From assembly GCA_947561395.2 (NCBI GenBank), contig OX387182.1:2800001-2864000 (forward strand): 64,000 bases of DNA. The letters are read 5' to 3'. This DNA is from Buxus sempervirens. Lineage: Eukaryota; Streptophyta; Magnoliopsida; Buxales; Buxaceae. The notes beneath the pieces were generated by a model. That model was not told the DNA's origin. It made no database searches and saw nothing but the letters and a program-made list of their open reading frames with translations. This document shows positions 11,439-63,904 of the stretch, piece by piece (positions within the stretch are counted from its first letter, which is position 1; each line of letters starts with the position of its first letter). The translations under genes were made by a program, and so were the position numbers.

Positions 11439-13979
11439 ATGCTTAAACTGGAGATATATTTCCCTAATTCACCTCTGCTACTCTGTGTTGCCATTGGATG
11501 CTTGTTTACCCAGGTGGTTTTTTCGCATATCCCTCTTGGTTCCAAGCTTTCTGTATCAGGAACCGACTATTGGGTCTCTTCAAATCGGGATTTTGCCTTT
11601 GGGTTCTTCAACCGTTCTGATCAGCCTAACCAGTATAGTGTGGGGATATTTTTCAATTCGCAGTCTGTCCCGGTTGATAAGCGAGCTGTGGTTTGGGTTG
11701 CAGGAGGTGATGTTTCAGTTGGTATAAATTCATTTGTTGAGCTTACTGATACTGGGGATCTTGTTCTTTTTGATTCCACAAAGGGCTCTGCTGCTTGGAC
11801 CAGCAATACGAGCCAGTCTTCTGTTGCTTCAGCTGTTCTTGGTGACAATGGCAATCTTATTCTTCTGAATGGAGACCAAATTGCTGTTTGGGAGAGTTTC
11901 CAGACTCCGTCTGACACGCTTCTTCCTGGCCAGAATCTCTCTCTCACCCAAATGCTTCGAGCTGCCAGCAGAAATTCTGTGTCAAGTTACTATAGCCTTT
12001 TTTTAGACATTTTGGGCTTGAAACTGCGGTGGGAAAGTAGTGTCATTTACTGGATAAGTGGGAGTGCTTCCAAATCAAATGTTAGAGCTGTTCTCACTTC
12101 TGATGGAGCTTTCCAACTTCTCAACAATAAGGACAGACCAGTCTGGTCGGCATTTGGAGAAGATCACAATGATTCCTCTGTGAGTTACCGCTTTCTTAGG
12201 TTAGATGTTGATGGAAACCTTAGAATGTATTCCTGGATAGAATCATCAAAGTCATGGAGATCAGTGTGGCAAGCTATTAAGAACCAGTGTGAAGTTTTTG
12301 CTACTTGTGGCCTATGTGGTATATGTGTCTTTTCTGAACAAGGTTCTCCTGTCTGCAAATGTGCATTTGTACCCGGATCGACCGCGGACTCCAATTCAAA
12401 ATGTTTGGCACCCTACACTGAGAATTGTAATTCTGGCAGCACCATGGTCATGCTACCCCATACATATCTTTATGGAATTTACCCACCCAATGAGTCAGTC
12501 ACACATACTAGTTTACAGCATTGCAGGGAGTCTTGCCGAAAGGATCCACTCTGCACAGCTGTAACTGTAGTGAACGATGGCACTGCACAATGTCGAATGA
12601 AGCAAACCCGGTATATCTCTGGCTATGCACACCCATCAGTAATGTCTCTGTCCTTCGTAAAGATGTGTTTAGATCCGGTTGCTACAGTGCCCAGAAATTT
12701 TCCAGCATCTTTGCCATCTTCTCCACCTCCTGTCCTTAAAGGATCACGCGGCTTCTGCATTCCTTGTCTGATTGGGGCATCCTCAGGTGCAGTTGTTACG
12801 TTTGTTGTGATTCAGTTTGCTATTGGCTTCTGCTTCTTCAAAAGAGGGAAATCCATGAAGAAGACAGCAAATTTGGCTTATAAGGACCCCAATTTGAGTG
12901 GATTGATCATGTTGTCCTACGCTGAAATCAAGGATCTGACAGAGAATTTCAAGCAGCAGCTGGGGCCAAAGCTGTTTAAGGGTATGCTTACACATAAACA
13001 AGAGGTTGTAGTAAAAAATCTGGAGGCATCCATAGAACAAAAGAAGTTCAGAAATGCAGTTTCCATCATAGGTAGCATTCACCACAAAAACCTGGTGAAA
13101 TTGGAGGGCTACTGCTGTGAGGCAGGGCACAGGTTTCTTGTCTATGAACTTGCTAAGAATGGTTCTGTGGATAAATGGATTGATGATCCTAAGCTCAGCA
13201 AGAGGCTAACATGGAGAAAGAGGATGGAGATTTGTTTAGGAGTGGCAAGGGCCATTGCCTATTTGCACTCAGGGTGTAGGGAGTTCATAAACCATGGCAA
13301 TTTGAAATGTGAAAATGTTGTTTTGAATGAGGAGTTGGAGGCTCAGGTAACCGAATTTGGGCTTGGGAGAGTAATTGATGGGGCCTGTCACAGTGGTGGG
13401 GCTGCAGAGGGGGATACGGCAAGCTTTGGTCAGATGGTGATGAGGTTGATATGTGGCCGTAGATTGGTTGAAGATATTAGTGAATGGGCTTACAAGGAAT
13501 GGATGGAGGGGCGAGCAGAGAGTGTCATCGATGAAAGGATGGAAGGTGGGGTGGATGCGGAAGAGCTAGATAGGGCATTGAGAATTGCATTTTGGTGTAT
13601 GCAAGTCGACGAACAATCAAGACCTTCAATGGGGGAGGTAGTGAAGGTATTAGAAGGTACATTAACAGTTGATCCCCCGCCGCCCCCTTATATTTGCCAG
13701 AGACTACCGGAAGATGAAGAGCTATCAAGGCCTTCAATTGGAGAGGTAGTTGAGGTATTAGAAAGTACCTTGACAATTGATACCCCACCGCCTCCTTACA
13801 TTTGTCAGAGACATCCGGAGGATGAAGATCTATCAAGGCCTTCAATGGGGGAGGTAGTGGAGGTATTAGAAGGTAAATTGACAGTTGATCCCCCGCTGCC
13901 TCACATTTATCGGAGCCCACCGGAGGAGGAAGAGCTGTCTGAATCAGAGCACAAGCCACAGAACCCGAAAGAATTATGA
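11439..13979 (+). CDS. SD3-1: G-type lectin S-receptor-like kinase, SD3-1-like (predicted pseudokinase)
   Basis: An intronless gene for an 846-residue type I membrane receptor. In order it has a signal peptide (about 1-29), a bulb-type mannose-binding lectin domain (about 35-155), a Cys-rich EGF-like segment (about 281-313), a PAN/apple domain (about 322-412) and one membrane helix (about 442-467). A cytoplasmic kinase-like domain follows (about 490-755). The VAIK lysine is kept (Lys526), but the catalytic-loop HRD is His619-Gly-Asn, the DFG is Glu639-Phe-Gly and the glycine loop is degenerate. Phosphotransfer is therefore unlikely and a scaffold or decoy role is inferred. The last kinase helix plus a Pro-rich tail is repeated three times at the C-terminus. 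The start was chosen because it immediately precedes a clear signal peptide. SD3-1 of Arabidopsis (At2g41890) is the likely counterpart, named from family recall. Confidence 0.9.
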   Translation: MLKLEIYFPNSPLLLCVAIGCLFTQVVFSHIPLGSKLSVSGTDYWVSSNRDFAFGFFNRSDQPNQYSVGIFFNSQSVPVDKRAVVWVAGGDVSVGINSFVELTDTGDLVLFDSTKGSAAWTSNTSQSSVASAVLGDNGNLILLNGDQIAVWESFQTPSDTLLPGQNLSLTQMLRAASRNSVSSYYSLFLDILGLKLRWESSVIYWISGSASKSNVRAVLTSDGAFQLLNNKDRPVWSAFGEDHNDSSVSYRFLRLDVDGNLRMYSWIESSKSWRSVWQAIKNQCEVFATCGLCGICVFSEQGSPVCKCAFVPGSTADSNSKCLAPYTENCNSGSTMVMLPHTYLYGIYPPNESVTHTSLQHCRESCRKDPLCTAVTVVNDGTAQCRMKQTRYISGYAHPSVMSLSFVKMCLDPVATVPRNFPASLPSSPPPVLKGSRGFCIPCLIGASSGAVVTFVVIQFAIGFCFFKRGKSMKKTANLAYKDPNLSGLIMLSYAEIKDLTENFKQQLGPKLFKGMLTHKQEVVVKNLEASIEQKKFRNAVSIIGSIHHKNLVKLEGYCCEAGHRFLVYELAKNGSVDKWIDDPKLSKRLTWRKRMEICLGVARAIAYLHSGCREFINHGNLKCENVVLNEELEAQVTEFGLGRVIDGACHSGGAAEGDTASFGQMVMRLICGRRLVEDISEWAYKEWMEGRAESVIDERMEGGVDAEELDRALRIAFWCMQVDEQSRPSMGEVVKVLEGTLTVDPPPPPYICQRLPEDEELSRPSIGEVVEVLESTLTIDTPPPPYICQRHPEDEDLSRPSMGEVVEVLEGKLTVDPPLPHIYRSPPEEEELSESEHKPQNPKEL
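13617..13940 (+). repeat. In-frame 108-bp tandem triplication at the SD3-1-like C-terminus
   Basis: Three consecutive copies start at about 13617, 13724 and 13832, a period of 108 bp or 36 codons. Each encodes Ser-Arg-Pro-Ser-(Met/Ile)-Gly-Glu-Val-Val-x-Val-Leu-Glu, then a Pro-rich Cys-Gln-Arg-like segment and an acidic end. The first copy is the normal end of the kinase fold and the other two are extra. Silent and replacement differences show the duplication is not brand new, yet the frame has been kept. Confidence 0.92.
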
Positions 13980-20180: not shown

Positions 20181-20248
<68 letters not shown>

Positions 20249-29200: not shown

Positions 29201-32200
29201 AGGTTGCTTATTGTATGGTTATCATGTTAAAATTTCTGAGCATGGTAAATTTTCTCAAACATGAGTGCAACATCAGAGATGGTAACAATCTATAGCATAG
29301 TAAATTTGTTCATCTTCTTTATGTATGTTTTTTAGCCCATATTTGTCATTAATAAGAACAAGGCAGATGGCTAAAGTTGTACCAATTGACATAGAACGAA
29401 GCTTGTGAATTATGCTGAAATTTGGGCAAAGAATGATGGAGCAGAGAGATGGATGTCATAGATGATATTAATCAATTTGGTTTTTTACCATGAAGGTCTA
29501 TCATTTGGTGTATCTTTTCGAATTGGACAATTACTGGAGGATTTCAAAAAGAAGATAACAAACTTCAAATGATGCGTATTTATATGTAAGAAAGAACATG
29601 TTAAAGTATCTAGAGAATTAATTTGGTGGGGTTGAGGCAAGAAAGTACCAAGAAAATGAATTGATGTTATGAAAGATGTATAAAGGAGCATAACATGTGA
29701 ACAAGCACTTATCAAAGGATCAAGAATCAACTATGAGCCCTTATCCATTTGCATTGGTTATATATGAATACACAACTTATATTCAAGAAGAAGTGCCCTA
29801 GCGCATGTTACGATTTCTATATGTTTGGGAATAGTAGAGATTCCACCAACAAGCATCTTTTTCTGCTCATTCAGTTTCTTTTCTTATTAGCAATCTTCTG
29901 AAAACATATTGGATATCAAATAAAAATATTGCAACGATGATATTGCTATAATTTATATTTTCAGTTAAAATATATCTTCTTTATTTTATAATTTTTGCTC
30001 ACAGATTGGTCTAAGATGGAGGACAGAAAGGGAAGTCATGTCTGGAAAAGGTGACCAAGAAGGCTCTATATTTTCAAATATTATTATTATTATTTTTTGT
30101 CTTTGATTATTAAAGCTTCACTTTGGTGGCTCATTACAATGAATTTGTTTTTGTTTGCAAGAAATATTTCTTGTTATTTGACAATCAACTATTTTTTCTA
30201 CCCTTTTTGTTTATTTTATTTTATTTTCTCACTCTTTTTACTTGCTATTATGATTCCTATTAATGAATGAAATTCAATTCACTAGAAATTTTGAGTTCCT
30301 CGTCTAATAAGATGTATTGAGAACATGAGCAGAATTGGAGTTAGTTTGTTAGCATACAAGTTATTGTCTTATATATGCGTAATTATTTATTGTTTGATTC
30401 TGTATTTTTGTGGAAGCTTGATTATCTGAATCATAAGAAATTGGGTTCAAAAATCTGATTTCTTCTGCTTGTGTTAACCACTAGTGGTCCTTTTTTTCTT
30501 TCTTAATGAGCAGTAAAGAGCTTGCGTTCTGTAGGCATAACTAGTAGGGATGTGGATGAGAATATGGTATTGGTACAGGAATACCATATCTAAATTTTTT
30601 TTTGTTTTTGATTGGTAAATAAGATATATTATATTTATAGATAAATAGAAGCATGATTCCTAGGTACACGAACAGTGTACCTATGATACATATTGAAATC
30701 AAACATACAAGTCTCGAGGGTAGTTTTACATATTCAAATACTCCTACTCCCAGTCCCACTCCCCTCCTCTGTTGATGTCAACAAAACAATCCTCATATCT
30801 GCTGCTGGACTTCCTACCTAATTTGGAAACATGTGATAAAGGACCAGGTCTTGAAACTGCACATCATTCATCATGCCATGAGCTGCCAGCCAATTATGCA
30901 TGAGTCTCAAAACTTTTCTTTCTAGATTTGGCAGACCTCGCTCTATACTTCTAAAAATTCTATTGTTCCTTTCTCCCCAGATTGCCTAAGAGATGGAGGC
31001 AGGAGCAACATTCCACAACAAGTTCTTTTGAGAAGTCCCTTTCTTTACACTCCAAGCCTGTAAAACCTTATCGAAGCTCTTTTCCTGAACCCACATTATT
31101 CCAAACCTTCCAATAATTCTGTTCCATAGGTTGTTTGTAACGCCCTGGACTCGGACATGTTCATTAAAGGTATATGCCGGTTCCTTAACAACAGGAGAGG
31201 TCCTAGAAACGCATTCCTAAGTTTTAAAATTAACCAAAGCAGTTATATTCTAATCCTAAAATTTTCAGAAAAACGGCTATATAACGCCTGTATTTACAAG
31301 AATGAGCTAAGCCTCCAATACTTGATAATCACAAGATAAACATATAGACAATATACATCCATTCCAAAAACTAACCCATCAAACATACACATATTTAACA
31401 TAAAGTTCACTAAGGTTCTCACTCTCTTTCTCTCTCTCTCAATTACAATTTATACAAGATCCAAAAAAATAGACGACTACAAAAAATATGCTGCCCAACC
31501 CTATCCAGGATAATAATAATCCTCAGGGTGGTAGTCGTCATCAGGTTCGTTATTTCTGCCTACCCCAGTTTGTGCTCGCTCTGCAGGTCTATCTGAAAAC
31601 AAATCGTTAAAACAAAACTCGTGAGACTAACGTCCCAGTAAGCAGCATAATGCATGATAAGAACATTTTATGCAGTTTCAATCATTAAAGTAGCATAATA
31701 ATGTAATATACAATCAAACTCTGGCAACTCATGCTAAAACCATATCAATATCATGTAATAACATTACTTTGAATTCTGTGGAATCATAAAACAGATTAAT
31801 CCAAACCACGATCTCAGCAAAATCTCATGTAATAACAATGATTTAATTCACTTGTCCAATTCGCCACCTCACAACTTACAACAGAAAGATCTAGCTAGGA
31901 TCACTCTTCCAAAGCGGAACACTCAAGCATGAGACATGCATGAGCTGGCAAGTACAACCCGGTCCAACCATAGCAAGTTAGCGATCTCTTCAGACCATCG
32001 AGTTAGTGATCTCACTGAGACCATATAGTTGACTTTTCGGGTTGCTGTGGCACATTCCGAGGAGGATGCAAGCTCACAACCCTCGGCCCCTCATGAGCTA
32101 GGGTGAACGGCAATCCACTACCCCAAATATAATATCATGGTTATTTAAATACCATAGACTAACTGCCTTACTTAAGTATGCCTTATGTTACATACTTTAA

Positions 32201-35200
32201 CAATGCAACCAACTTCGACTTAACCCACACACGAGAAGCCACTTCTTGAACACAAGTTAGAATTTACCAATTTAGTACTTGACAAAGGCCAACACAAATT
32301 ATTTACACTTTGTTTGCAGTTGCTACTTACTATGTAAATCTGAATTTAACTAGTGAGTTGAATACTAAACCTGATCCAATATATAAGGAATTGGTATGTG
32401 TGCCATATATCGTTGGAAAGATCTACGAATCTAGTTTCCAACGCAACAAACGGTTCGTGATTCGGAGTTACTTACAGGAAGTTATGGCTGTTTTACTACA
32501 GGTGGTTCAAAACAGCCGCGAAACCTACTGGACGGAAATCATCAATTTTTCTGGATTTTTCTTGCAATACCTCGAGTTCCAATTGGTCCTAAACCAATTC
32601 CATTCAACTACAAATACCCTAAACTCAATTTTAGAATACTAATATAAATTTTTACGCAAAGATTCCTAGCCTTTGCAAGCCACCGAAATTTTAGACTACT
32701 GACCTCATCTTAAAGTTCTGTAACAGAAGGTCGCCTACTCAAATCTCATTTCCTCAGTTCCATTTCAGAATCTAAATCAGTATTTTTCTTATGCCAAATC
32801 AAACCTAAAATCAAAACTAAATTAACACTCTCATGCCGAATCAAGACCGAAATTAGAACTCTAATCACAAATAACATCAAAGAGATAAACAATGCAAGTT
32901 CTTCAAAATTCTGCATCCCATATAACCAGCAGGACAAATTCCCTTTGTAACATGTCCGAGCAAAGCTATACTCAACTAATTTATCGGCCAACCTAAATGT
33001 CTCAGCTTAAGCTAGAGTCCCTTCCTACAACCTGTTTCAGGTAAACAGTAGATTTTATCCTAAGCTATACCAACAAACCCTTAATCCAAAACATGCTTAG
33101 ATCAAACAGCTATCAATACATGCTTAGATCAAACAGCTACCAATACATGCTTAGATCCAATAGCTACCAATACATGTCAAATCCGAACCTAGCCTCAGCA
33201 CCTATTCTTCTCATGCCAACTCAAAACCTAAACATATTGAAAATCATCAATACTTGTTTGAAATCTTGAGCATTCCAATCAGAACCACTCACTACATATT
33301 CTTAATCAATTTACCACGACATGGTCATTAAAAGATCATAAACGAATTACCCATAACAGGCATGCTTCATTACCAACTACATCCACCAAATTTTGTCACA
33401 AGATTCCTTGGCAAACTAACTTATTTAAACAATACAATAACCAGACAGCCAATTAGGATTTTCTTTCTGTCTCAACAACTAACAGCAACTTAAATGGAGC
33501 ACAAACAACCAATTAGGATTTTCTTTCTTTCTCAATAACTAACAGCAACTTAGAATGAATATAAAGAACATGTCTAGACGCACGACTGCTCTACTTTGAG
33601 CGTTTATTTGCAAACAGTAATTGATTATACTCAAAAGAATATAAACGAAGTCATAAGAAATAAATAGTAATCGATCAAAACCAAACAATAATCGATCAAA
33701 CAAATAGAAATCAGAAAAACAAAACCCAAGCAGTAATCGATCAACCAAAAAAATTGCTACTTACCGATTTGAACGAATCCAAACGCCCAAACCCTCTTTT
33801 CTCTTTTCCTTTTTCTTTCTCATGCGGCTAGCCCTCACACGAACGACCCCCCTTTCTTTCTTCTTCTTCTCCTCCCTCCTCCTGCGTTTTCCCCGTTCTT
33901 CTCAAACCCCAATGTCCCCCTTTTTCCTTGGATGAAAGAACCGTAACGTTTTTTTTTTAAACCATTGAACCGGTTTAACCACTTGAACCAACTCATTTAA
34001 CCTACCAATTTAAACCATTAACACTCACTAAACCAACCCAACTAAATAAACCAACTATTTTATTTTTCCAGCATGTTTGATAAAAAGGGAGATTCCTCTA
34101 AAGAACCACATGTGAGAGAAGAGGATCCCAGGGAACACTGGAGTGAAGAGGATCCCAGTGAGCACTTGAGTGAGGAAAAAGATCTCAGTGAACCTCAAGC
34201 TTCGATTAGCGAAGAATCAAAAGAAAGAGAACTAATTGAGATCACATCAATGGAAGAGGACCCTAGTGAGGAGAATCCACCTGAGGAAGATTCTGATACA
34301 CCTCAGGAGGAATCGTCTGAAGCACGATTCGTATATGAAGGAATCATAGGATGTACATTACTGATTGGGGGTAGCACAGCAGTTTGTCTCTGACACAGGA
34401 GCCCAATCATCTCTAGCGGATCCTGAATTCTTAAGTACCATACATTCTTATTCAAGGATCACTGAGAGTATAAAACGTATGAGTACGATTGGAGGAGAGT
34501 TGGAGGCAGTTCGAAGGACATTTCACGACTGCAGTGTTCAGATGGGAGATATACAAATGACAGTAGATTTAATGGAAATCCCGATGTATGACGAATTTAA
34601 GGTGATCTTAGGGATGGATTTGATGGTTAAATACCATGTTGTTCTTGAACTTTTCAAGCATTTGAGTTCAAGAAAGTCTGCCCACTTTAAGCTAATGCAT
34701 TCACAATTACTCGTCACATGAAAAGTTCAAGCATTTGAATTCAAGAAAATATGTACCTCTGGGATCCTGCTTTTGCCGGGATCTACATGGGGTTTTAGTG
34801 CTTTTTTTAGAGCCAAGCATGTAAATGTCACTTGTTTCTTGGTAAGTTGATTTCTATTTCTCTCTGTTATGGTCTTGTATCTTCTAACTCTATAATCTGA
34901 CAGAAAATATCTTTATAAGTGATGTATATGGTTTAGAGAATAATTTGTTAACCTTCTTCAACAGGGCAATTCATATGTGGTAACAAGCAATGCAATGAAA
35001 AAGATGGCTTAGCAAGCTATGAGGTAAATATTTGCACTGGATATCAACTTATTCACCTGCAAAATACAATGTAAGTAGGCTTTTGATAACATTTTTAATA
35101 GTGCTCATGATTCAACAATTGCAAGCTATAAAATCATTATATGCTTATGTTTCTATGATATTTCAGTCAACCAAGGGCAGAGGACCCTTGGTTGTTAGTC

Positions 35201-38200
35201 TAGTTCCATCCATTTAGAATTTTTGACCTTGTGCATTCACATTCTGGTTACCTGGAGCAGCGGCTAGCAATTTTTTGTATGCAAGAGAAATCTTAGTTTA
35301 TAGTTATAGTTAAAAAATTCATAAGATGGAGAAAGACATAATACCGAACAATTAAAAAAAATTCCATTTTCAAGAAGTAAAAAATTTTAGAAGATTTCCG
35401 AAAAATATTTAAGAGTTTTCAAGATCTTGTCCAGAATAAGATGTACGTGCTTTTTGCCCTAAATGCTTTTAATATAGCTGGAAAAAACAAAAACAAAATT
35501 TTCACAGCTGTAAAAATTTTCAGGACAAAAAGAAAAAAAGTGAACATTTACTCCCTGTGGTAGTTGCAAAATCAAGCCATTGAAGCTCTTTGGATTTATT
35601 TTAAGAAATTACTGTAGGAAGTCTTGTTGATGATCAACAGTGAGTCAAACAAATGCAAGCAAGTAGCTGATGAATGCATAGATCATAATATATATATATA
35701 TATATATATTATCTTCCCAAAAATAATAGCTTACAACTGCATAGATCATAATATTTATATTCAATGTACCAGGGTGATATTTCTTGTCTCTGTTTTTGGA
35801 AGGGGAAGGGGAAGTTATTGAAAAAGAAAAGAAAATTCTAAGGTAAAAAGTGAGTCTTGATTTGGCCAACTTCATCTATTCTATTTGACCATTGAGGTTC
35901 TGATGAGCTCGCAAAGATGCTGCAAAAATTACTTCCAAGTGCAGAAGCTTATCAATTATACAAGGGTGAGTCCCAAGGTCATTTTCCTCAGGGACATGGT
36001 TGTTAGAAGTAACTCAAAAATTAAAAATTGAAGATGCTAGGGAATCAAAGAAGAAAAGAAGACAGAATTTACATGAGCTAAGTGACAAATTGTTGCCTAA
36101 AATTTGAAATTAAACTAAACTAGTCTTAATTCTAAAAGCAAAATTAATCAAGGTAAACTAAACTCCAAATCAGATTTTAGGGATAGAAAAAGAGTAGAAA
36201 AAAACCAGTAGAGTCAATGAACAAGAAATAAAAGCAACATATACTAAATTGCAAGGAGTAACCTAAATGAAGGTAAAAAAATTCTCTAAGGACAAGTTAA
36301 TCAAACACCTGAGCTACAGGTTTTGCTCAAACATGGACTGTATCTCTCTTCCTCTTAAATCCTCTCTTCTTCAATTACCAACTCAGTCATGAGATTGATA
36401 ATCGGATGCTTAAACAATGCAACCTAAACTGTAATTAAGATAAAATTGCTTAAGGAAATTGCAAAACAGATCTGGAACGAAATTTCAGATAGAAAAACCC
36501 AATTCATAACTCAAGCATCCGCTGTGCCACTGCCTATTGTCGACAGTGGATCAAGGTTTGTTGGAGATCTCCTTTCAAAAATAATAAGAATTGCTCTACA
36601 ATTTCTAAAGCCTTCAACACAAAACCAACATGAGGATGTGTTGCCATCATTTCCGGCTTGGCTCGGGGACGCGTGAGTGCGCGGGCGTGCCAGCATCTGT
36701 GCCGATGCAAGGAAGGAGTGGAAAACTTTTGACCCCGGCGCTGTTTGTACGCAAAACCAAACGGGTTGCGGTTTGGATACGACCCGGCCGCCTATAGATT
36801 GGAAGACTTCTGATCCGGCGATTGCTAAGACGGTTGGGGTTTGTCCTCCAAGGTTCTTCCCCCAATTTTATGGCAATATTGATGACGGCCACGTTGGTGG
36901 TGGCCGTTTGATGTAGAATCTGCAAAAATTGAGGGCCGTGTGGGATGACGGCCGTTTCAAGGATGGATGGGCCATGTGGGGTGACGGCCGTTTCAAGGAT
37001 GGATGGTGATGAGAATCAATAAAAGGTAAAAAGAAAACCAACAAAATCTCGGTATCTGCCGCCTGTTTCCTTATAGCTGTGATCGGAGTATAGAGAGAAG
37101 ATATCGGGGACTACCTTGAAGATTACTGGTTCCGGGGTGCACATCGTGACTGCCCTTAGCCTTTCTTGAAGGGGTAAGTGAGATCGTACCTAGCCGTGAT
37201 CGGAGTAGGGCGTATCTTAAGATCATACCTAGCCGTATCGGAGAAGGGCGTATCTTCTTAGCCTTGTCTAGGAGTAAGGGGGATCTCCATGTGTTGTTGC
37301 GACAGGAAGCAACAGGATGATAGACTACTTCATGCTACGAGGATAGCATGAGAGTAGGGTGGTCTGAGAAAACCAGATGAGAGGTCTAAGGAGACCGTAA
37401 TAACTAGTGTAGTTGTGTGTTGATCGAGGGATCTCTTTCCCTTGTCTGCAGGTCCCTATTTATAAGCTGTTTGGCTTGATCACAGAGTTTCCCAACTACC
37501 CACTCTTAGGAAGTTGAACCCCACCTTTACACAAACCACCCACGCTTACAGAAAGTGGGGGACCCCACTTCCCATGTTCTTTTAGAGAGTCCTATCTTGT
37601 GGTCAACCTCCTACGTAATGGAGGGTTTCTTAACAGACCCCACTTCCATAGATTGAGGGATATTTATAGCCACATAATATTCAAGTCTACCACCAGGCTA
37701 CAACGGGTATAAACATTGCCCTCCCACTTTCTCATTACGTCGCTGCAGTAAGACGTGATGAGGAAGTGATAATACACTTGTCATGGGACCAGCCTTATGA
37801 TGGGTCTCACTTGACCCGTATGTGGTAAAAAATCGGCCAAAAGTTGTATTTGACCGTAAAACAATATTAGCATCACTTGATATGGCCGGATGATCATTTT
37901 GTAAAAATATGAAGACCGGTTGACTATTTAATGCCATGGATGTTACCAGTCAACACATACGGCTCGACTCAGCCAAAAGATGCTAACTTCTGGGTAGAAG
38001 TTATAACTAAATGTTATATAACTAAAAGACGTTAACTTGATATTTGTTTGATGACTTCAACCGAAAAAAGAGGCCATGTGCCTATTTTTTAATTATTTGA
38101 CTATTCACGGCCGAAAAGGCTTGTTTTTAATCAAACATGCGGCTGATGACTATTTCTTAATTACTTTAGTAATCATGGCTGAAAAGGCCTGGTTTTAATC

Positions 38201-41200
38201 AAACATGCGGCCAATGACTATTTTTTAATTATTTGAGTAATCATGGCCGATTGCTTTTTCAACCGCTTTTCAACGGCCGATGGTCATTTTCTTATGACCA
38301 AACTTTAAATAAATTAATCGGCCGTTTGTTTATGACCGCTTTACGTAACATCCGGATGTTACGTAAATTGTAAATTGGCCGAATGGCCATAGTCTGTCTT
38401 GTCTTCCCCACAAGTGTTATGGCAAACAAGATGACAAACGGCCGATTAATTTAAAGTTTGGTCATAAGAATGACCATCGGCTGTTGAAAAACGGTTGAAA
38501 AAGCAATCGGCCATGATTACTCAAATAATTAAAAAATAGTCATTGGCAGCATGTTTGATTAAAACCAGGCCTTTTCGGCCATGATTACTAAAGTAATTAA
38601 GAAATAGTCATCAGCCGCATGTTTGATTAAAAACAAGCCTTTTCGGCCGTGAATAGTCAAATAATTAAAAAATAGGCACATGGCCTCTTTTTTCGGTTGA
38701 AGTCATCAAACAAATATCAAGTGATGGGACGAGTCCCATCAACTGGCAACACGGCTAAATATAACATTTAGTTATAACTTCTACCCAGAAGTTAGCATCT
38801 TTTGGCTGAGTCGAGCCGTATGTGTTGACTGGTAACATCCATGGCATTAAATAGTCAACCGGTCTTCATATTTTTACAAAATGATCATCCGGCCATATCA
38901 AGTGATGCTAATATTGTTTTACGGTCAAATACAACTTTTGGCCGATTTTTTACCACATACGGGTCAAGTGAGACCCATCATAAGGCTGGTCCCATGACAA
39001 GTGTATTATCACTTCCTCATCACGTCTTACTGCAGCGACGTAATGAGAAAGTGGGAGGGCAATGTTTATACCCGTTGTAGCCTGGTGGTAGACTTGAATA
39101 TTATGTGGCTATAAATATCCCTCAATCTATGGAAGTGGGGTCTGTTAAGAAACCCTCCATTACGTAGGAGGTTGACCACAAGATAGGACTCTCTAAAAGA
39201 ACATGGGAAGTGGGGTCCCCCACTTTCTGTAAGCGTGGGTGGTTTGTGTAAAGGTGGGGTTCAACTTCCTAAGAGTGGGTAGTTGGGAAACTCTGTGATC
39301 AAGCCAAACAGCTTATAAATAGGGACCTGCAGACAAGGGAAAGAGATCCCTCGATCAACACACAACTACACTAGTTATTACGGTCTCCTTAGACCTCTCA
39401 TCTGGTTTTCTCAGACCACCCTACTCTCATGCTATCCTCGTAGCATGAAGTAGTCTATCATCCTGTTGCTTCCTGTCGCAACAACACATGGAGATCCCCC
39501 TTACTCCTAGACAAGGCTAAGAAGATACGCCCTTCTCCGATACGGCTAGGTATGATCTTAAGATACGCCCTACTCCGATCACGGCTAGGTACGATCTCAC
39601 TTACCCCTTCAAGAAAGGCTAAGGGCAGTCACGATGTGCACCCCGGAACCAGTAATCTTCAAGGTAGTCCCCGATATCTTCTCTCTATACTCCGATCACA
39701 GCTATAAGGAAACAGGCGGCAGATACCGAGATTTTGTTGGTTTTCTTTTTACCTTTTATTGATTCTCATCACCATCCATCCTTGAAACGGCCGTCACCCC
39801 ACATGGCCCATCCATCCTTGAAACGGCCGTCATCCCACACGGCCCTCAATTTTTGCAGATTCTACATCAAACGGCCACCACCAACGTGGCCGTCATCAAT
39901 ATTGCCATAAAATTGGGGGAAGAACCTTGGAGGACAAACCCCAACCGTCTTAGCAATCGCCGGATCAGAAGTCTTCCAATCTACAGGCGGCCAAGTCGTA
40001 TCTAAACCGCAACCCGTCTGGTTTTGCGTACGAACGGCGCCGGGGTCAAAAGTTTCAAACTCCTTCCTTGCATCGGCACAGATGCTGGCACGCCCGCGCA
40101 CTCACGCGTCCCCGAGCCGGAAATGATGGCAACAGGATGACTAAAAAGAAGATACATATCCAATTCAGAGCTCCACCTGAGCTCAGGGATTTATTTACTC
40201 ACACATGGTGCTGGACATGATCCATTTAGTCATGAAAGATTCCATTAATTCAATAAGATTAAACAGAAACAGAGAGTGAAATTCTGAAGTAAACAAACAC
40301 TGATCCATTTGAATTCTCTAAACATGCACAATTGAAACAGAAATTGAAATCAATCCACTAGAACTAGTGAGACAACTAAAATTAAAACAACAAGAGGGAT
40401 TTACTAAGAAGGAAATCTTCTTGCCGACAGAAATCAGAAATTGTAAGCAAACAGAAACTCCCTGATTCGTCCACTGTGTCCTCTGATCATGAATTATGAG
40501 AAAACACCTTGGAAACGATTAATGTTGTATCTTTAAAGCTAACTCAAGAGTAAGAAGACACCGAATAGAAAAATAAATGGAAAAATACAGAAGCCAAAGA
40601 AAACGACTCTCCTCCTCCTCTCGATCCAGCCCTCTAATGCCGAATACCCCCTTCTTGAATGACCCTGCTCTCTTCAATCTCCTCCGAATATTCCTCCTCA
40701 AACGCTCCTCTCTCATTCGCTGATCTCCAACGGCCTTGATAGGCCATTAGCCTACTCAGCACCAAGCCACTTGAATTTTTTATTTCCCATTTTGTCCCTG
40801 CAAACAAAATAAATCCAATTAGTAAGTGAGGGACAATAAGGTAATTAGCCAAATTTAATGTTCTCATGAGATGGCAATGCAAGCTTATGCAACTTATTGC
40901 ATCCGATTTAAAATCCAAATCAGAATTTAGCTCATTTAACCCATGCCTAATCTCAAAATATTCTCAAATTGATGCAAAGACACTTCTTTACCCAAAATTA
41001 ATCAGAAAGTTCTCAAGTAAATCCATTTCACATTAAGCACACTTCCCATGCACAATTAACCTAAAAATTCAATTCAATGCTTAGGCCATGAACATAAATC
41101 AATGAATGATTAAGCAATTATTAAAGGATTTTTCTGTATTTTTCACCTCAATAAGTGGCTTAAATATACAATTTAACTACTCAATCAGGTTCCATCCGAT

Positions 41201-44200
41201 ACATAATACATTTCTCTCTGAAATGGATGCAATTTTCCCTTTCCATGTTCCACTCTTACTGATAACATATGAATGTCCTGTTTTAGTCAAGGTTTACAAT
41301 TTTGGCGGCATGCCACGGCGTGCCGCCGAAATTTTGGTACAGGGACCCCCGGCGATGCGTTTCGCCGGGGGAAATCGTTCTGGGTGCATCGCCAGCAAAT
41401 CACCGAAATTTCGACGATTTGTCACCGGCACGAACGGCGTGCCGAGCGGCACAGACCGGCACGAACAAAACAGAAAAAAAATCAGTTTTTATACATGAAT
41501 CGGAGCGGCACGGAGCGGCGTGCCAACGAAATTTCCACCGGCACGAAAAAAAAACCCGATTTTTGCCTTTTTAATTTTCCGCCATTTCGGCCGATGGGCC
41601 GCCGCCCACCGGCACCGAAACGTAAAACCTTGGTTTTAGTGTCACACAAGTAAAAGCTCTTCAATTTCAATATGGGTTCATCGATACTAGATCTGTGCTT
41701 AACAGTGAAGCATGTTCATGGATATGGCATCTATCTTTTAGGTATTTATGCTTCTAGGTTGACTCAATGTTCGTGGGACTTTGAGTAATTACTTCTATGG
41801 GAGAACTTATATTTTTAACGAGAAGAATAATCCACAAATTTTGTTATTTTTTGCATTTCTCTCTCTTGTATTTGACTTTCACTCGAAGAAGAAAGAAAGT
41901 GCTAAAACATTAATAGAATAGCACTGTCTGGAGAGCACTGGAGGGGCTGGGTATAACTAGATCGAACAAAAAGAATGTTACATGGGGATTATAAGATGCT
42001 CTGATTTGGGTTAAAAAATGGTAGCATTTGAAACAATTATTTTTTCTGGTGAAGAACCTTACTGCAGATGGAAGTTGAGAATAATTGAGCATGGTAAAAG
42101 CAACGGTTCCTTTTGAGTGCTATTAATTTATTGTCTACTACCCCAAAGAAAGTAACTCTTAACGCTAGGGAGCCAACTGATAAAAAATTACTCAAAAAAG
42201 ATGGCATTAATTTTAAACAAGAGAAAAAAAGGCTGCTTGCTTATTAAAAGAATAAAATTCATGTCAAATATAGATCATTAAATTGATCCAATTAATTCCT
42301 TGGTGAGCACATATCTTAATGACTGAAGATACAGTTTTTGATAGATTAGGATGGAGGAACAGGATTTATTTTTTGGAGCCCCACAAGTTGGTTTAAGTCA
42401 TTATTGATAAGGGAGTTAAGGAGGCAATTGCTTTGGGCCTTGTTTACCTTGACTTAGAAGGAGACTCTGCCACTGTCGTTCGGTGCTAGACAATTCCAAA
42501 TCTGTTCCATGGAGATTTTACCATCAGGTCAAGGCTATATTGGCTTCATTTGATGGGTTAAATTACACCTCCCCTCGTATTAGCAGATGTAAGAATATAT
42601 CTGGCAGATAAGCTGGCCATGAAAGGAGCCAGTATGGACATCTGTTTTTTCAGGTCTTCTGTCTCAAGAGTGGTGGAAGATTTTAATTGAGAACCCTGAC
42701 TGGATTTGGTGTGACTCAAGTTAGGGATTGGGTGTTGTTGTTTTACTTTTGTGACAGGTAGGTATTCTTTCGGATGGACAGCTATTTGTTTGTTTCTTTT
42801 TTTGCTTTTTCTGGTGTCCTTCGAGCAGTTTGCCATGCTTCTTTGCTCTCTCTTTTCTTCTTAATTAATTATCACCAATTAAAAAAACTGAGACTCAATC
42901 TCTGATTGTTAGTACTCATGACGAAAATCTTGTTCTTCATATTTTGAGTTTCTATGTGATGAGCAAAGTTAACAATTTTAACATGTTTGGGATTCTATGT
43001 GATGAACAAGAAACACATAATGTAATTTTCTTATTTTTCTTCAAAATAAAAAGGAAAAGGAAAAGAAAAAGAGAGACTGTTAAGAAAAAAGAAAAAGTGA
43101 AGCTGTTCCATGGTCCTAATGAAAAAAAATGAGTGTAGCTCATATTGGCCTTTTAACAATGTTGCTTTGTCTATATGCATTTTACCGGCTATGGATCTTA
43201 ATTATGAATTTCTCTTTCATATAATAGGAATCTTTCTAACAAGCTAAGTGTTCTAAGTTCTGCATTTTTTATCATACAAATCTTTGTTTTCATGATTACT
43301 AGGCCATTTTGTGAAAGTATTGTATTTCGTCCTTGTCATTTTGGCAGGTGAATTTCTCTTATTTTGAAGCAGGAGAAAATAAGCAGGCACTTGTGAAATT
43401 GGTAGTCTGTGAGAGGTGAGTTTGTATCTACTCAATTTTTCAATCAGTGCTAACTATTACATGCGCTAACAATATTTTAAGGAACATATGGCTCTTCTCA
43501 ATCATTTATGCATCTATCATGGACAAGTTGGGTTTTTCAAATTAGCTGCAGTACATGTGATATCCATGTCTCACCAGAAATTTTCAGTCGAGCATTTCAC
43601 TGCACAATATGCATTCCTAAGTATAGCTGAATTGTATTGTTGTAGTTCACTTATTCTATATCTCCCCTTCCTTCTTCCCCTTCATTTTGCCGGTGGTTAT
43701 GCTAGGCTCTAATGACTGACCATATTCATGAAGATGTGCCAAGAAACTTGCATATAAAAAGCAGAAAGAGAGGGAGCAAACAGAAAAAAGAGAGGGACAC
43801 AGAAGAAAGAGGTGCTGTTTGAATCGTCTCTGCTTCTGTTTTATGGGCTTTTATTTACTTTTGTTTGAAATGAAACTAAAATGGTATGGGGTTTTCACTT
43901 CTCTCTAAAAGCTCATGCATGGGTCATTTTTCAGGGGAAGATCAAAAAGTGATGATAATACAGACGATGAATACGAAATGAATCAAGAGATAAGGAGAAG
44001 AGGTACCCACTTCTCACTGATTATGGTTTTTGTTTCACATTTTAGGAAGAAAATTTCTGCCTGCGCTTTTCATATGTTTTTTTCTTTTGACCTGCATTAT
44101 GCTTATGGTGCTACGTTATCCCTTGGCAGTGGTCACAATTGTCTACTGTTTTGCTTGTGTTCCATTTTAATTTGTAGGAATTACATTGGAGATTTATCTT

Positions 44201-45988
44201 GTACGGAGATTTATCTTGTGTTCCAGTTCATTTGTCTCAGGATATAATAGTATAAACATTATTTATTATTATTTTTATTTTGTTATTGTTCTGATAATAT
44301 CATGTGGTTATAGAAGTGAAACGAAGAACTTATTTTTCAGGCTAAGAAATCAGCAATCTCACTAGCACTTTGAAGGTTGTTGAGCTATTCATAAGGATAC
44401 TGATTGCTTTAAAATGACTTTTCCTTCTCGTTTATTTATGGTCTTGAACTTGATGACTTGTTATTTATTATTGACTGTACGCTACCCCATTGATGAGACA
44501 TCCAAAATACACACTTCATAGACCCAATTTACGGACTCAAGCTGCTGAAAAATCTTACAATGAAGCTTCAAAGTAACTATTGAAGCAATGATTATCCTCT
44601 TAGTTCTCCTTAGGAGCTCGTTGGGAGTACTATTATGTCACCTCTTAGATTGGATGTTTAACGTGTGTAAAACTGCGAACAAAATGATTTATCCAGCATC
44701 GTATATGAATGCAGCTTTGTGTTTTGATATTTTAATGCTTCACAATTTAACTTACCATGGTAAATATATAACAACGAAAGTAGGCAAAAGATTTTCTGGA
44801 TTGGCTGGTCTAGTTTGGTTTTCTATGTGATGTCAAGATTTCTGCACGTGGAGGGTTGACAGAATGACATGGCCAATCAGAGCAACCTTGTGATAGGGGA
44901 GCCTCTCCATGGGACAAGTGGACAAAACCCCTTCATCCATGTATGTTTTTGCATAAGCCACTGAATTTTTTTGTACTTGTTTGGTCTTTTAAATTAGAAG
45001 GACAATAACATGAAAAGGGCTCCTCCCATGTGGATATGTTTTATCTTTAACATTGGCATGTGAATCCCCTAAAGGAAAACCTGGACAAGATTTGGTCGTC
45101 AACAGAGCCTGCCACATACTAAACTGGTGCCACATCAGCAGTCTTAAAATGGTGCATCTTACCATCTGCCTGTAATGCTTTTGCCTTCACAATTAACTGT
45201 ATACTTGTATAGAAAAATTTGGCATTGTCCAAAGTATTGGGATATATATACATGACTACAAAGGGGCAAAATTAATTAACTATGCATCTTGTCACTTCCA
45301 AATTATACCTGAACATTTCTGTTTCTTCCTTTCAGTTTATTATTTTCGATGCTGTTCAACTTCTTCATTAATAAAGGCCACTTCATTAACGGAATAATGA
45401 TTTTTGTGTATGTTTTGTGTCTTTATCTCTTTCCATTTGTGTGCGTGCGTATCGACACATCTAAGAATTGACTTATCAACTGCTCCTTCCAAAGGCGTCA
45501 ACTAATGTGTTACGGAAGTCTCCTCTGTTGATCAGAACGTGTTGTTCTTAATCCCTGTATATCATTGGTGTAATCCTCTAACCCCTTCTGTTCGGCAAAT
45601 CAACTCTTACACTCTTATCCTTCCAACTGATACTTCTACCTTGTAAATTGTCAATTATCAGAAACATTGTTAATTGTTGGTTTAAACACTTCCCAAACAG
45701 CTTATTGTAGCAAAGTATTCCATGGGATGAGTTTCGTAGGTTATCAGTATATTATTATAGTTATTGCTGTGGATTTATGCTTCCTTAATAATAACTTCAT
45801 TTTGCTGAAGGTAATGATAGTGACACTTGTATGTGATACTATTCAATGATTTATCCTCCTAATCCCAAGTATCGATGGAAAGATTAATTTTGTGTATGTG
45901 GGCAGGAAAAAAGGCTTCAGCGGTAGATGATCACAAGACTGACACAGATGAAAACTTCGATGAGTTTCTTGAAGGAATGTTCCCATGA
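16501..45988 (+). CDS. FRA10AC1: FRA10AC1 homologue, spliceosome-associated protein (11 exons)
   Basis: The exons I read are 16501-16556, 16630-16697, 22688-22769, 24984-25067, 28931-28970, 30005-30050, 34965-35023, 43348-43415, 43734-43811, 43935-44002 and 45906-45988. All introns are GT-AG. Every phase joins and the coding total is 732 bases (243 residues), a strong internal check. Family hallmarks are a basic N-terminus with HIRGLNAYDRHKKF (24-37), TLREGYRFI (63-71), SWEQRLVKRYY (81-91), LRWRTERE (113-120) and four cysteines (130, 135, 166, 169) that could bind zinc. A Lys/Arg-rich stretch and an acidic tail ending EFLEGMFP follow. The human orthologue is a nuclear protein of the fragile site FRA10A, reported in spliceosomal complexes. 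Coding sequence is about 2.5% of the locus, the rest being transposon-filled introns. Confidence 0.93.
20180..20242. repeat. (TA)n microsatellite, about 30 units
   Basis: Uninterrupted TA dinucleotides of roughly 60 bp inside FRA10AC1 intron 2. Likely polymorphic in length. Confidence 0.95.
20990..21540 (-). mobile_element. copia LTR retrotransposon remnant (RNase H end plus LTR part)
   Basis: On the minus strand, about 21530 to 21344 encodes TKHIDVRF, then GEVMLEKVHISENEADMLTK. This is the C-terminal end of copia RNase H (family pattern TKHIDVRYH...VHTxxNxADxLTK). The frame is broken. Downstream on that strand is a G-rich polypurine-like tract ('ctgggaggggcctgaggg', about 21313-21330), then LTR-like sequence containing the 'cctacgtcc' phrase near 21090. 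It is antisense to FRA10AC1. Confidence 0.75.
21575..21955 (-). mobile_element. L1-type LINE 3' end
   Basis: Minus-strand frame 21948-21748 reads WxxxRALWRERNKRI, the zf-RVT-like C-terminal region of plant L1 ORF2 (pattern W..W..RN.RIF). It is followed by a 3' UTR and a T-run at about 21581-21589 that is the poly(A) tail. Strongly 5'-truncated, as is usual for LINEs. Confidence 0.75.
23310..23625. repeat. Tandem duplication of about 145-150 bp in FRA10AC1 intron 3
   Basis: 'ccatttacttggattaaaaa..ggtaggaaaaaa' through 'cttacaagctatgatag', 'gatgatggtgatgaagatgg' and 'tacgagaagta' occurs at about 23316-23455 and again at about 23460-23620, with small indels. Confidence 0.75.
23560..24110. repeat. 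Degenerate GGT/GAT-rich low-complexity tract
   Basis: Over 500 bp of loosely repeated GGTGAT/GGTGGT words, with no stable period. Strand asymmetry is strong (G and T on plus). It looks like an expanded and decayed trinucleotide repeat. A similar tract is at 53,650-53,870. Open frames on the minus strand (His/Pro-rich) are artefacts of the repeat. Confidence 0.8.
25625..25720. repeat. GT-rich microsatellite patch
   Basis: Interrupted (GT)n and GGGT words with a TGCATGCATGCATG stretch, within the U12 intron of FRA10AC1. No gene is implied by the Cys/Trp/Val-rich open frame across it. Confidence 0.7.
26990..27420 (-). mobile_element. L1-type LINE 3' end in the U12 intron
   Basis: Minus-strand reading gives the end of a plant L1 ORF2 (...LVDQVVSLEATWASAHKDFSN-like, with shifts) after LFLPLYGIFCWHTIRGF. 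It is followed by 'aggtttgtcatgttttgg', 'tttgttgaacttcatgg' and a tail of A/T words near 27020-27060. It is 5'-truncated and antisense to FRA10AC1. Confidence 0.65.
30590..31130 (-). mobile_element. L1-type LINE 3' end in FRA10AC1 intron 6
   Basis: On the minus strand from about 31130 the frames contain Trp-Ala/Gly-Asn-Leu-Gly-Arg/Glu-Arg-Asn-like and Leu-Met-His-Asn-Trp-Leu-Ala-Ala-His-Gly-Met-Met-Asn, which close many plant L1 ORF2 proteins. After a 3' UTR the element ends in a T-run at 30596-30605 (poly(A) on the minus strand). Frameshifted. It abuts the LTR that starts at 31136. Confidence 0.7.
31136..34730 (+). mobile_element. Ty3/gypsy LTR retrotransposon remnant (long LTR plus protease region)
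   Basis: An LTR-like start TGTAACGCCCTGG at 31136 is followed by nearly 2.9 kb of LTR-type sequence ('gagactaacgtcccagtaag' near 31623, 'cgttggaaagatctacgaat' near 32411). A Glu/Ser/Pro-rich frame then opens (34073-34393). After a +1 shift near 34375 comes a retropepsin-like domain: Phe-Val-Ser-Asp-Thr-Gly-Ala-Gln-Ser (34384-34410 region) and Val-Ile-Leu-Gly-Met-Asp-Leu-Met-x-Lys-Tyr-His near 34600-34640. Gag, reverse transcriptase, RNase H and integrase are absent, so this is a truncated dead copy. The LTR's right border and any target duplication were not found. Confidence 0.7.
35684..35711. repeat. Short (AT)n run within a small direct repeat
   Basis: About 12 AT units, embedded in two copies of 'gcatagatcataatat' (about 35676 and 35738). 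Confidence 0.8.
37457..37464 (-). promoter_or_regulatory. TATA box, left arm of the palindrome, facing outward
   Basis: TATAAATA on the minus strand within 'cagcttataaatagggacc'. It mirrors 39314-39321. Transcription would run left, toward the 36639 end. Confidence 0.55.
38061..38250. repeat. ~68-bp tandem repeat in each arm of the palindrome (left copy)
   Basis: Units contain 'ggccgaaaaggc', 'tttttaatcaaacatgcggc' and 'tgactatttcttaatta', starting near 38110, 38178 and a truncated one near 38246. The mirror copy lies at about 38507-38696. The GGCCG-core words recur through the middle of the element. Confidence 0.75.
38340..38367. repeat. Perfect 28-bp palindrome at the centre of the foldback element
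   Basis: TTTACGTAACATCC is followed directly by its own reverse complement, with no spacer. It lies inside the 104-bp non-duplicated centre, so it is separate from the arm symmetry. It contains two TACGTA cores (each ACGT, a bZIP-type core) and a central TCCGGA. Confidence 0.9.
39314..39321 (+). promoter_or_regulatory. TATA box, right arm of the palindrome, facing outward
   Basis: TATAAATA in 'cagcttataaatagggacc', followed about 30 bp later by a T/C-A-rich stretch suitable for a start site ('ctcgatcaacacacaac'). It is the mirror of the left-arm box, so the element carries two divergent promoters pointing to its ends, like U3-R boundaries of LTRs. Confidence 0.55.
41288..41632. mobile_element. 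GC-rich hAT MITE, 345 bp, with perfect 8-bp target duplication
   Basis: The ends are CAAGGTTT (41288-41295) and AAACCTTG (41625-41632). The flanks are GTTTTAGT at 41280-41287 and 41633-41640. The interior is far richer in GC than the surroundings, with many 'ccggcac', 'gccg' and 'cgtgcc' words, which explains the overlapping open frames (130, 126 and 90 codons) that I do not take as genes. A degenerate relative ('ggcacaacggcatg...gcagcacgagcggcatg') begins at about 63,908 and runs off the window. Confidence 0.85.
42330..42720 (+). mobile_element. Chimeric LINE relic (RTE tail joined to an L1-like RNase H fragment)
   Basis: 'gatagattaggatggaggaacaggatt' (about 42342-42368) encodes the Trp-Arg-Asn-Arg-Ile close of RTE ORFs and matches 63343-63370. 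From about 42410 the frames read EAIALGLVYLDLEGDSATVVRC, the RNase H-like domain of plant L1 LINEs (LGL..v.vEGDS..vv). ADKLAMKGASMD-like sequence follows after a frameshift (about 42600). It is in the sense direction of FRA10AC1, intron 7. Confidence 0.6.
44003..45905 (+). other. FRA10AC1 intron 10 (1903 bp)
   Basis: Starts GTACCC and ends GGCAG. I recognise no transposon domain or second gene inside. The small open frames are unconvincing. Confidence 0.75.
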
Positions 45989-46531
45989 GCGCAGTATAAT
46001 TTAGATGTTCTACCTGAAGGTACCCTTCTGTATACAGTTACCATGTTAGTGGAATGCAGTAATTAGATTATATAATCTGAAACCTAAATTAGATTCTTAC
46101 TTAAGTCACCGACATTGCACGCAAATCATATCATTTTACTTTTTCTTTTGGAGACAATTATGTAAATTTGTCAGTTTAAAATATTTATGTGCAATCCGAA
46201 GAAACTGAAAAAAAATTTCTGCCTGCAAATCGTATCATTTTTTTTTCTTTTGCAAACAAGGTTATGTAAATTTGTCGGTGCAAAGAATATTTCTATGCAA
46301 TGTGAAGAAACTGACAAAATTTTGCTGCTTCCCTTTGTATAATTGCCTCAATAATTTGCAGAAGGATATGGAAACTTGGATGATCCGAAATCATTGGTCA
46401 GAAATGTTTCAATTAATCAACATTTATTTCAGTGACATTTGTGTAAAGCAGCTTTCTTCTAACTTTGTGTAAATTAATTTTTAAATCCTTGCAATCACAC
46501 TTCTTCACTGTATATGTGATCAGCTAGAACA

Positions 46532-63660: not shown

Positions 63661-63711
63661 AAAATAGTATAGTGCTATTATTATATGCCTAATAATATAA
63701 TTACTATATAC

Positions 63712-63715
<4 letters not shown>

Positions 63716-63762
<47 letters not shown>
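63716..63762. repeat. (TACA)/(TA)n microsatellite
   Basis: A few 'catacata' units pass into about 18-20 TA dinucleotides, then 'cacacacg'. Inside an AT-rich stretch of the NF-YA intron. Confidence 0.9.
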
Positions 63763-63904
63763 CACACACGTATATGTATCTATCTTTATAGTTATTATCA
63801 ATAATAATATATCATTATCATTATTTTAGTAGCAAATTTTTAATTTTTATAATATTTTTATATGTTTTTATAATTTGTTTGATTTTTTTTATAATTTTAT
63901 GAAT

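Follow-up and report, generated by a model that had tools for sequence, protein, structure and literature searches.

A long palindrome in the genome of Buxus sempervirens very probably arose when an inverted cDNA dimer from a short LTR retrotransposon inserted once

Within a 64,000-nucleotide stretch of the Buxus sempervirens genome (assembly GCA_947561395.2, contig OX387182.1, positions 2,800,001 to 2,864,000; hereafter the window), a near-perfect palindrome at 36639-40134 is very probably the product of a single insertion of an inverted complementary DNA (cDNA) dimer, derived from a short, non-autonomous long terminal repeat (LTR) retrotransposon. The palindrome is a real, unusual structure with an ordinary parent and is related to complex cDNA insertions; on present evidence it is not a new transposon family. 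By sequence comparison, each of its arms comprises one LTR, a polypurine tract (PPT) and the 3' internal region, all from an ordinary element present in many copies.

Alignment of the two halves places inverted arms at 36639-38329 (1691 bp) and 38434-40134 (1701 bp), differing by 18 mismatches and 5 gaps and separated by an asymmetric centre of 104 bp (38330-38433). The outer termini, TGTTGCC...GGCAACA, lie between exact 5-bp copies of GGATG at 36634-36638 and 40135-40139, outside which the two flanks are unlike. The arms of ~1.7 kb, the centre, the ends and the GGATG copies had all been given in a preliminary description of the window, and the alignment confirms each of them. Both outer termini are LTR 3' (U5) ends, and despite this one single 5-bp target-site duplication (TSD) encloses the whole palindrome, with the earlier attribution of TG...CA ends and a 5-bp duplication to a retroviral-type integrase supported. 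In the left arm, on the reverse strand, the 1077-bp LTR (36639-37715; LTR start TGTTTATACCCG), which has LTR-length matches in the genome, lies with its U5 end (sense GGCAACA) outermost, and is followed inwards by the PPT, a G-rich tract with CAA (37716-37730; sense AAAGTGGGAGGGCAA), and by ~0.6 kb of 3' internal region (37731-38329) carrying 68-bp tandem repeats at 38079-38250. In the right arm, on the forward strand, the corresponding 3' internal region (38434-39047; 68-bp tandem repeats at 38507-38678) leads through the PPT with CAA (39048-39062) to a 1072-bp LTR (39063-40134) with the U5 end GGCAACA outermost, in which outward-pointing TATAAATA boxes are seen by eye at 39110 and 39314.

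The identity of the arms emerges from searches of the host genome (676.5 Mb), in each of which only the best 40 candidates were scored. The left arm returned 739 candidates, with many ordinary copies among those scored, and 29 of the 49 matched stretches span query positions 1-8 to 1082-1089 of 1667 and extend no further, so that the LTR is ~1.08 kb in length rather than the whole arm. The LTR of the window arms begins TGTTTATACC, where most other copies have TGTTTACACC, and its end is GGCAACA. Ten copy-bearing loci (L009-L018) were fetched for comparison, and two direct LTRs or LTR pieces are present in seven of these (L009-L011, L013-L015 and L018), with a single LTR in L012 and L017, and a single LTR with the 3' region in L016. 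A primer binding site (PBS)-like TTTTTGG (TTTTTGT in L018) follows an LTR end in all seven two-LTR loci, and L009, L013, L014 and L015 show the ordinary order of LTR, PBS, 5' segment, a small palindrome of 28 bp, 3' region, PPT and LTR, the 3' region of L014 diverging soon past the small palindrome. The PBS of the ordinary copies is TTTTTGGCACGCCCGGTGGGACC, with small changes, and fits the 3' end of the host transfer RNA (tRNA) genes for tRNA-Arg(TCT). A PPT, judged by sequence appearance, precedes the 3' LTR in both arms and in other copies, where a comparable G-rich tract ending in CAA is seen. The window palindrome itself has no PBS and no 5' LTR, and its two LTRs are inverted.

Six copies have both outer ends visible, with exact 5-bp duplications in three (L011, L017 and L023) and flanks matching at four of five TSD positions in L009 and L010. 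L017, a single-LTR copy with TG/CA bounds and a GTTAC/GTTAC duplication, is an example of the single-arm copies that had been named in advance as a sign of LTR origin; a related solo LTR on contig C9 has an exact GGAAT duplication. At eight copy-bearing loci (L009-L011, L013-L015, L018 and L030), no open reading frame (ORF) within the element exceeds 182 aa (the domains of these ORFs were not scanned), the longer ORFs sitting in, or mostly in, the flanks. A Pfam scan of 36511-36867, the one scanned ORF that overlaps the palindrome, gave no domain, and an Rfam scan of window positions 30000-46000 and a pattern search of viral contigs each gave 0 matches. The family copies look like short, non-autonomous LTR retrotransposons, and the integrase would therefore have been supplied in trans.

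The position of the inversion joint is decided by the ordinary copies. A perfect 28-bp palindrome at 38340-38367 makes 38353|38354 resemble a zero-spacer centre; however, a near-perfect 28-bp palindrome around CATCC|GGATG is present in all four ordinary copies read there (L009, L013, L014 and L015), and as this feature is native the real joint lies at 38433-38437 and the 104-bp centre stands. A candidate reading of each arm as a single 1.78-kb LTR, joined U3-to-U3 at 38353|38354, is ruled out by the LTR length of ~1.08 kb and by the native character of the symmetric point; the causal link of the GGATG at 38353|38354 to the target duplication falls with it, and the arm alignment forced to that point, which gave 39 mismatches, is superseded by the alignment of the true arms. 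In ordinary copies the small palindrome sits 117-153 nt inside of the 5' LTR, close to the PBS, and could, purely as an idea, be an RNA dimerisation site favouring strand switching.

Read along the forward strand, the left half passes from its LTR through the PPT, 3' region and small palindrome into the 5' segment, as an ordinary minus strand would, up to 38433 (38436 with the shared ACA included), with the asymmetric centre being a single-copy 5' internal segment on the reverse strand, contiguous with the left arm. The switch point lies 46-49 nt from the 5' LTR end in all four copies measured, and past the joint the sequence continues as the sense strand of the 3' region and then out to the second LTR end. 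A 3-nt microhomology, ACA (38434-38436), is common to both sides and makes the placement of the joint ambiguous by 3 nt. A search with window positions 38290-38500 returned 61 candidates, and among the best 40 the joint is spanned by the window only. The left-side matches of other copies stop by query position 147, which lies 3 nt beyond 38433, as expected from the shared ACA, and the far-side matches, where present, are on the opposite strand, most starting from query position 145 and one from 135. As the joint is found once, it represents, as far as searched, a single product rather than a family of palindromic elements, and the earlier suggestion of an LTR-derived non-autonomous hairpin element is rejected among these same 40 candidates. 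Likewise, the second genomic copy with the same ends that was sought for such a family does not appear as a palindrome so far as searched, with the ends recurring as the LTR ends of the family.

For the formation of the window joint we infer a failure late in reverse transcription. A nearly finished minus strand would run to 46-49 nt from the 5' LTR, where its 3' end may have missed plus-strand transfer at the PBS and primed on a minus strand, either its own or that of a sister in the same particle, crossing at the 3-nt microhomology into the 3' internal region of the opposite strand and continuing to the second U5 end. Alternatively, two broken cDNAs may have been end-joined before insertion. 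Integrase acting in trans from an autonomous relative would then pair the two U5 ends and insert the dimer, with the middle 1.2 kb probably homogenised later by arm-to-arm gene conversion. The preliminary proposal that a pair of LTRs had fused head-to-head and gone in as a single DNA came close to this, although the fused parts are two cDNA halves, each of an LTR plus 3' internal region, with the U5 ends outermost and the 5' internal segment between the halves.

A second palindrome, of 12.3 kb with arms of ~6 kb, lies on another contig at C4:13348200-13360467, where it was recognised from an inverted pair among the genome-search matches and read piecewise (L033, L031, L029, L032 and L034). Its arms are 91-93% identical in the three longest collinear alignments, and its outer ends are both U3 (TGTTTACACC...GGTGTAAACA), between exact copies of GTTGT. 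The joint consists of a sense LTR end, then CCTCTTTT and a 50-nt match to the primer tRNA-Arg(UCU), and then an inverted LTR end. These 50 nt correspond, in antisense and at 98% identity, to nt 27-76 of a host tRNA-Arg(TCT) gene, CCA included, and a PBS-plus-T-loop pattern allowing at most one mismatch occurs at three genome sites, namely the C4 joint and two real tRNA-Arg(TCT) genes. The gene at C4:7233829-7233904 (L035) is followed by a genomic CCA; that at C1:61273807 is not. The tRNA copy in the joint starts directly after G26, a position that is usually methylated and is a known stop for reverse transcriptase. The simplest source of the segment is a plus-strand DNA that copied its tRNA primer, which ties the C4 joint to reverse transcription.

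In the C4 palindrome, the left inner LTR (A2) and the right outer LTR (A4) have a common U3 type, 94.6% identical without gaps over the first 260 nt, and a 500-nt query from A2 found no full-length match other than A4 (93% over 500 nt) among the best 40 of 509 candidates. A1 and A3 have another U3 type (95.1% over 246 nt with 28 gap columns), but this type was rejected as a unique pairing, being common, with 39 other scored places at 89-93% and A1 itself absent from them; only the A2/A4 pairing therefore carries weight. Each half thus bears two different LTR types, which fits either two joined cDNAs followed by a crossover between the arms or an exchange of strong-stop DNA between them, without telling which. 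An additional internal LTR, of the type found in the window and with 84% identity on the left, is also present in each arm, and the source of the C4 palindrome was accordingly already composite. The left outer LTR (C4:13348200-13348306) has two copies of the LTR start TGTTTACACC at an interval of 96 bp, and a doubled LTR start is likewise found in a solo LTR on C9 (L037, 2245 and 2341). The C4 palindrome is read as the mirror product of that in the window, with cDNAs joined at their U5 ends together with the primer-tRNA copy and inserted via the two U3 ends.

The C4 palindrome also lends some weight to the strongest alternative for the window, in that it suggests that full-length cDNAs can fuse and insert in this way. 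Under this alternative, two full-length cDNAs were joined head-to-head at their U3 ends and inserted via their U5 ends, with the unstable centre later deleted by microhomology repair, so that the two 5' LTRs and a portion of one internal region were lost and the 104-bp asymmetric centre was left. The centres of long palindromes tend to be deleted, and the 3-nt microhomology at the joint agrees with such a repair; however, an extra event is required, and the stop of the left copy near the PBS, 46-49 nt from the LTR, is expected anyway for a minus strand awaiting transfer. We regard this history as unlikely, though deserving of serious consideration.

The arms of the window palindrome do not diverge evenly. 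Their high identity, remarked upon in the preliminary description, holds without a single difference over 1225 bp (36795-38019 on the reverse strand, mirrored at 38759-39983), but is not uniform: the outer 156 bp contain 10 mismatches and a 5-bp indel, and the inner part differs by 8 mismatches, small gaps and one local rearrangement. When 18 events (the rearrangement counted once) were placed at random, none of 200,000 placements gave an equally long clean run (bound ~1.5e-9). The segment that is unlike between the arms, at approximately 38723-38758 in the right arm, could be aligned in one ordinary copy, L009, and as the right arm agrees with L009 it is the left arm in which the rearranged segment looks derived. 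In the outer part, the state seen at three columns is not shared by any of 25 other U5-end stretches, which represent 24 distinct copies. Comparison of the arms makes post-insertion gene conversion between them likely, with the clean block read as a recent conversion tract; possibly, two different parent RNAs instead recombined during reverse transcription.

Other origins for the palindrome fare poorly. Chromosomal routes such as fold-back repair or a replication template switch are generally known to produce inverted duplications, and could in principle have made an ordinary insertion palindromic at a later time, but this would require the left end of the duplicated sequence to coincide precisely with the U5 terminus, next to the left target duplication, and exact GGATG copies flank the whole palindrome, with the C4 palindrome equally exact; we consider this route highly improbable. 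That the structure is an assembly or sequencing artefact, from a hairpin read or mis-joined haplotypes, is barely credible: zero-spacer palindromes do arise from long-read hairpins, but here the flanks differ and carry exact duplications, the arms show 18 mismatches and 5 gaps around an asymmetric centre, and a second case lies on C4.

Foldback transposons have long inverted arms and usually an 8-11-bp duplication, and Ginger elements are a family of their own with TGTNR terminal inverted repeats, short duplications and their own integrase-like transposase. The window palindrome resembles both in its long inverted arms and Ginger elements in its TGTTG ends, which fit TGTNR, and its 5-bp duplication could also be taken in favour of a DNA transposon. 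It differs from foldback elements in the length of that duplication and in the lack of a multi-copy palindromic family (the joint occurring in one of the best 40 candidates, the window), and from Ginger elements in that its termini are the LTR ends of a retrotransposon family and no Pfam domain was found in the one scanned ORF. As the arms contain the LTR and PPT of an LTR retrotransposon family that has, in its ordinary copies, directly repeated LTRs and a tRNA-type PBS, the Ginger-like transposon raised in the preliminary description is set aside, and a DNA transposon of either kind has next to no probability.

Several observations weigh against a single insertion of an inverted cDNA dimer followed by gene conversion. 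One of the six copies with both ends visible, L012, has no 5-bp duplication, and neither an autonomous element nor its integrase was identified. The searches gave no close parent, the six best other places being 86-92% identical among the best 40 of 739 candidates, and, as only the best 40 were scored per search, the genome may contain more palindromes, or more copies of the joint, than were seen. The probable one-step insertion is judged from the host genome alone. The remaining differing columns of the outer arms recur in some other copies, and the outer differences, being only partly private, could predate the insertion, so that conversion is not proven.

Amongst described systems, the closest include the complexes of Sabot and Schulman 2007 (PMC1950507), which in the passages available comprise two cores and a shared LTR with one 5-bp duplication, formed via abnormal template switching. 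As in those passages, two retrotransposon copies appear to have been fused as reverse transcription proceeded and then to have entered the genome in a single event, one 5-bp TSD enclosing the product; however, whilst in the complexes described there the two cores share a third LTR, which is internal, and the outer LTRs match, the present halves are inverted with the LTRs outermost, and the outer ends are alike (U5/U5 in the window and U3/U3 on C4). Two same-orientation cores sharing an internal LTR, as in a Sabot-Schulman complex element, are not found in the window palindrome, and the word 'inverted' has no occurrences in PMC1950507. In the parts of PMC6317226 consulted, tRNA-Arg, and not tRNA-Met, is among the tRNAs used by non-chromoviruses, and TSD exceptions of 4 bp (6.2%) and 6 bp (0.4%) are given, implying 5 bp as the rule. 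The family resembles non-autonomous Ogre/Tat/Athila elements in its tRNA-Arg PBS, PPT, 5-bp TSD and absence of any long ORF seen, although the window insertion differs from such elements in being inverted and without a PBS or 5' LTR. A place in the Ty3/gypsy Ogre/Tat/Athila superclade is suggested only.

Integration is usually described as pairing the U3 end of a molecule with its own U5 end. The occurrence in one genome of a U5/U5 insertion and a U3/U3 insertion, both between exact 5-bp duplications, suggests that a plant retrotransposon integrase can accept two like ends in vivo. An in vitro parallel is offered by the available passages of PMC3790719, in which U5-end oligonucleotides are named for Rev-A integrase and 26 colonies of concerted products with a 5-bp duplication are reported, which suggests that both ends were U5. 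These products and the window palindrome are alike in concerted insertion, 5-bp duplication and, going by the oligonucleotides named, U5 ends, but PMC3790719 used a purified retroviral enzyme and short oligonucleotides, unlike the genomic insertion described here. No report of an inverted like-end LTR retrotransposon insertion with a target duplication was found in the titles and abstract starts of the papers listed, with most subscription journals outside this scope.

On a broader proposal we are evenly divided, namely that plant LTR retrotransposons repeatedly produce inverted cDNA dimers as a by-product when they replicate, and that the integrase can insert these via either like-end pair (U5/U5 or U3/U3), each event seeding a long chromosomal palindrome that recombines and undergoes gene conversion between its arms. 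If true, their joints can preserve replication intermediates, such as a primer tRNA copied to just before G26, and genomes would hold a fossil record of failed reverse transcription; the C4 joint also documents the extent of primer tRNA copying. Like-end insertions would give rise to long palindromes in the genome; such palindromes are recombinogenic and, if transcribed, could yield hairpin RNA. Five genome searches gave 203 places in 129 clusters at 20-kb spacing, with both orientations in three clusters (the window, the C4 palindrome and an LTR pair on C9), two of them palindromic; as only the best 40 were scored in each search and the queries came from these two loci, 2/129 is a description and not a rate. 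The C9 pair (C9:26814744/26820711) was rejected as a third inverted pair, since it consists of two single LTRs at a distance of ~4.6 kb, of which one is flanked by a GGAAT duplication of its own.

Elsewhere in the window, a Pfam scan of 20 further ORFs gave matches in one, a retroviral-type protease remnant. The ORF at 34365-34721, ~2 kb to the left of the palindrome, has similarity to a retroviral aspartyl protease (Pfam PF13650, E 9.9e-07) and is either an unrelated retroelement remnant or a host protease gene. The ORF at 11439-13979 (846 aa) resembles a G-type lectin S-receptor-like kinase, SD3-1-like, and is closest to proteins of Tetracentron (71% identity) and Nelumbo (66%). In the self-comparison of the window, a (TA)n run at 20182-20242 shows as an inverted repeat with ~63690-63809, the second site being known by match only.

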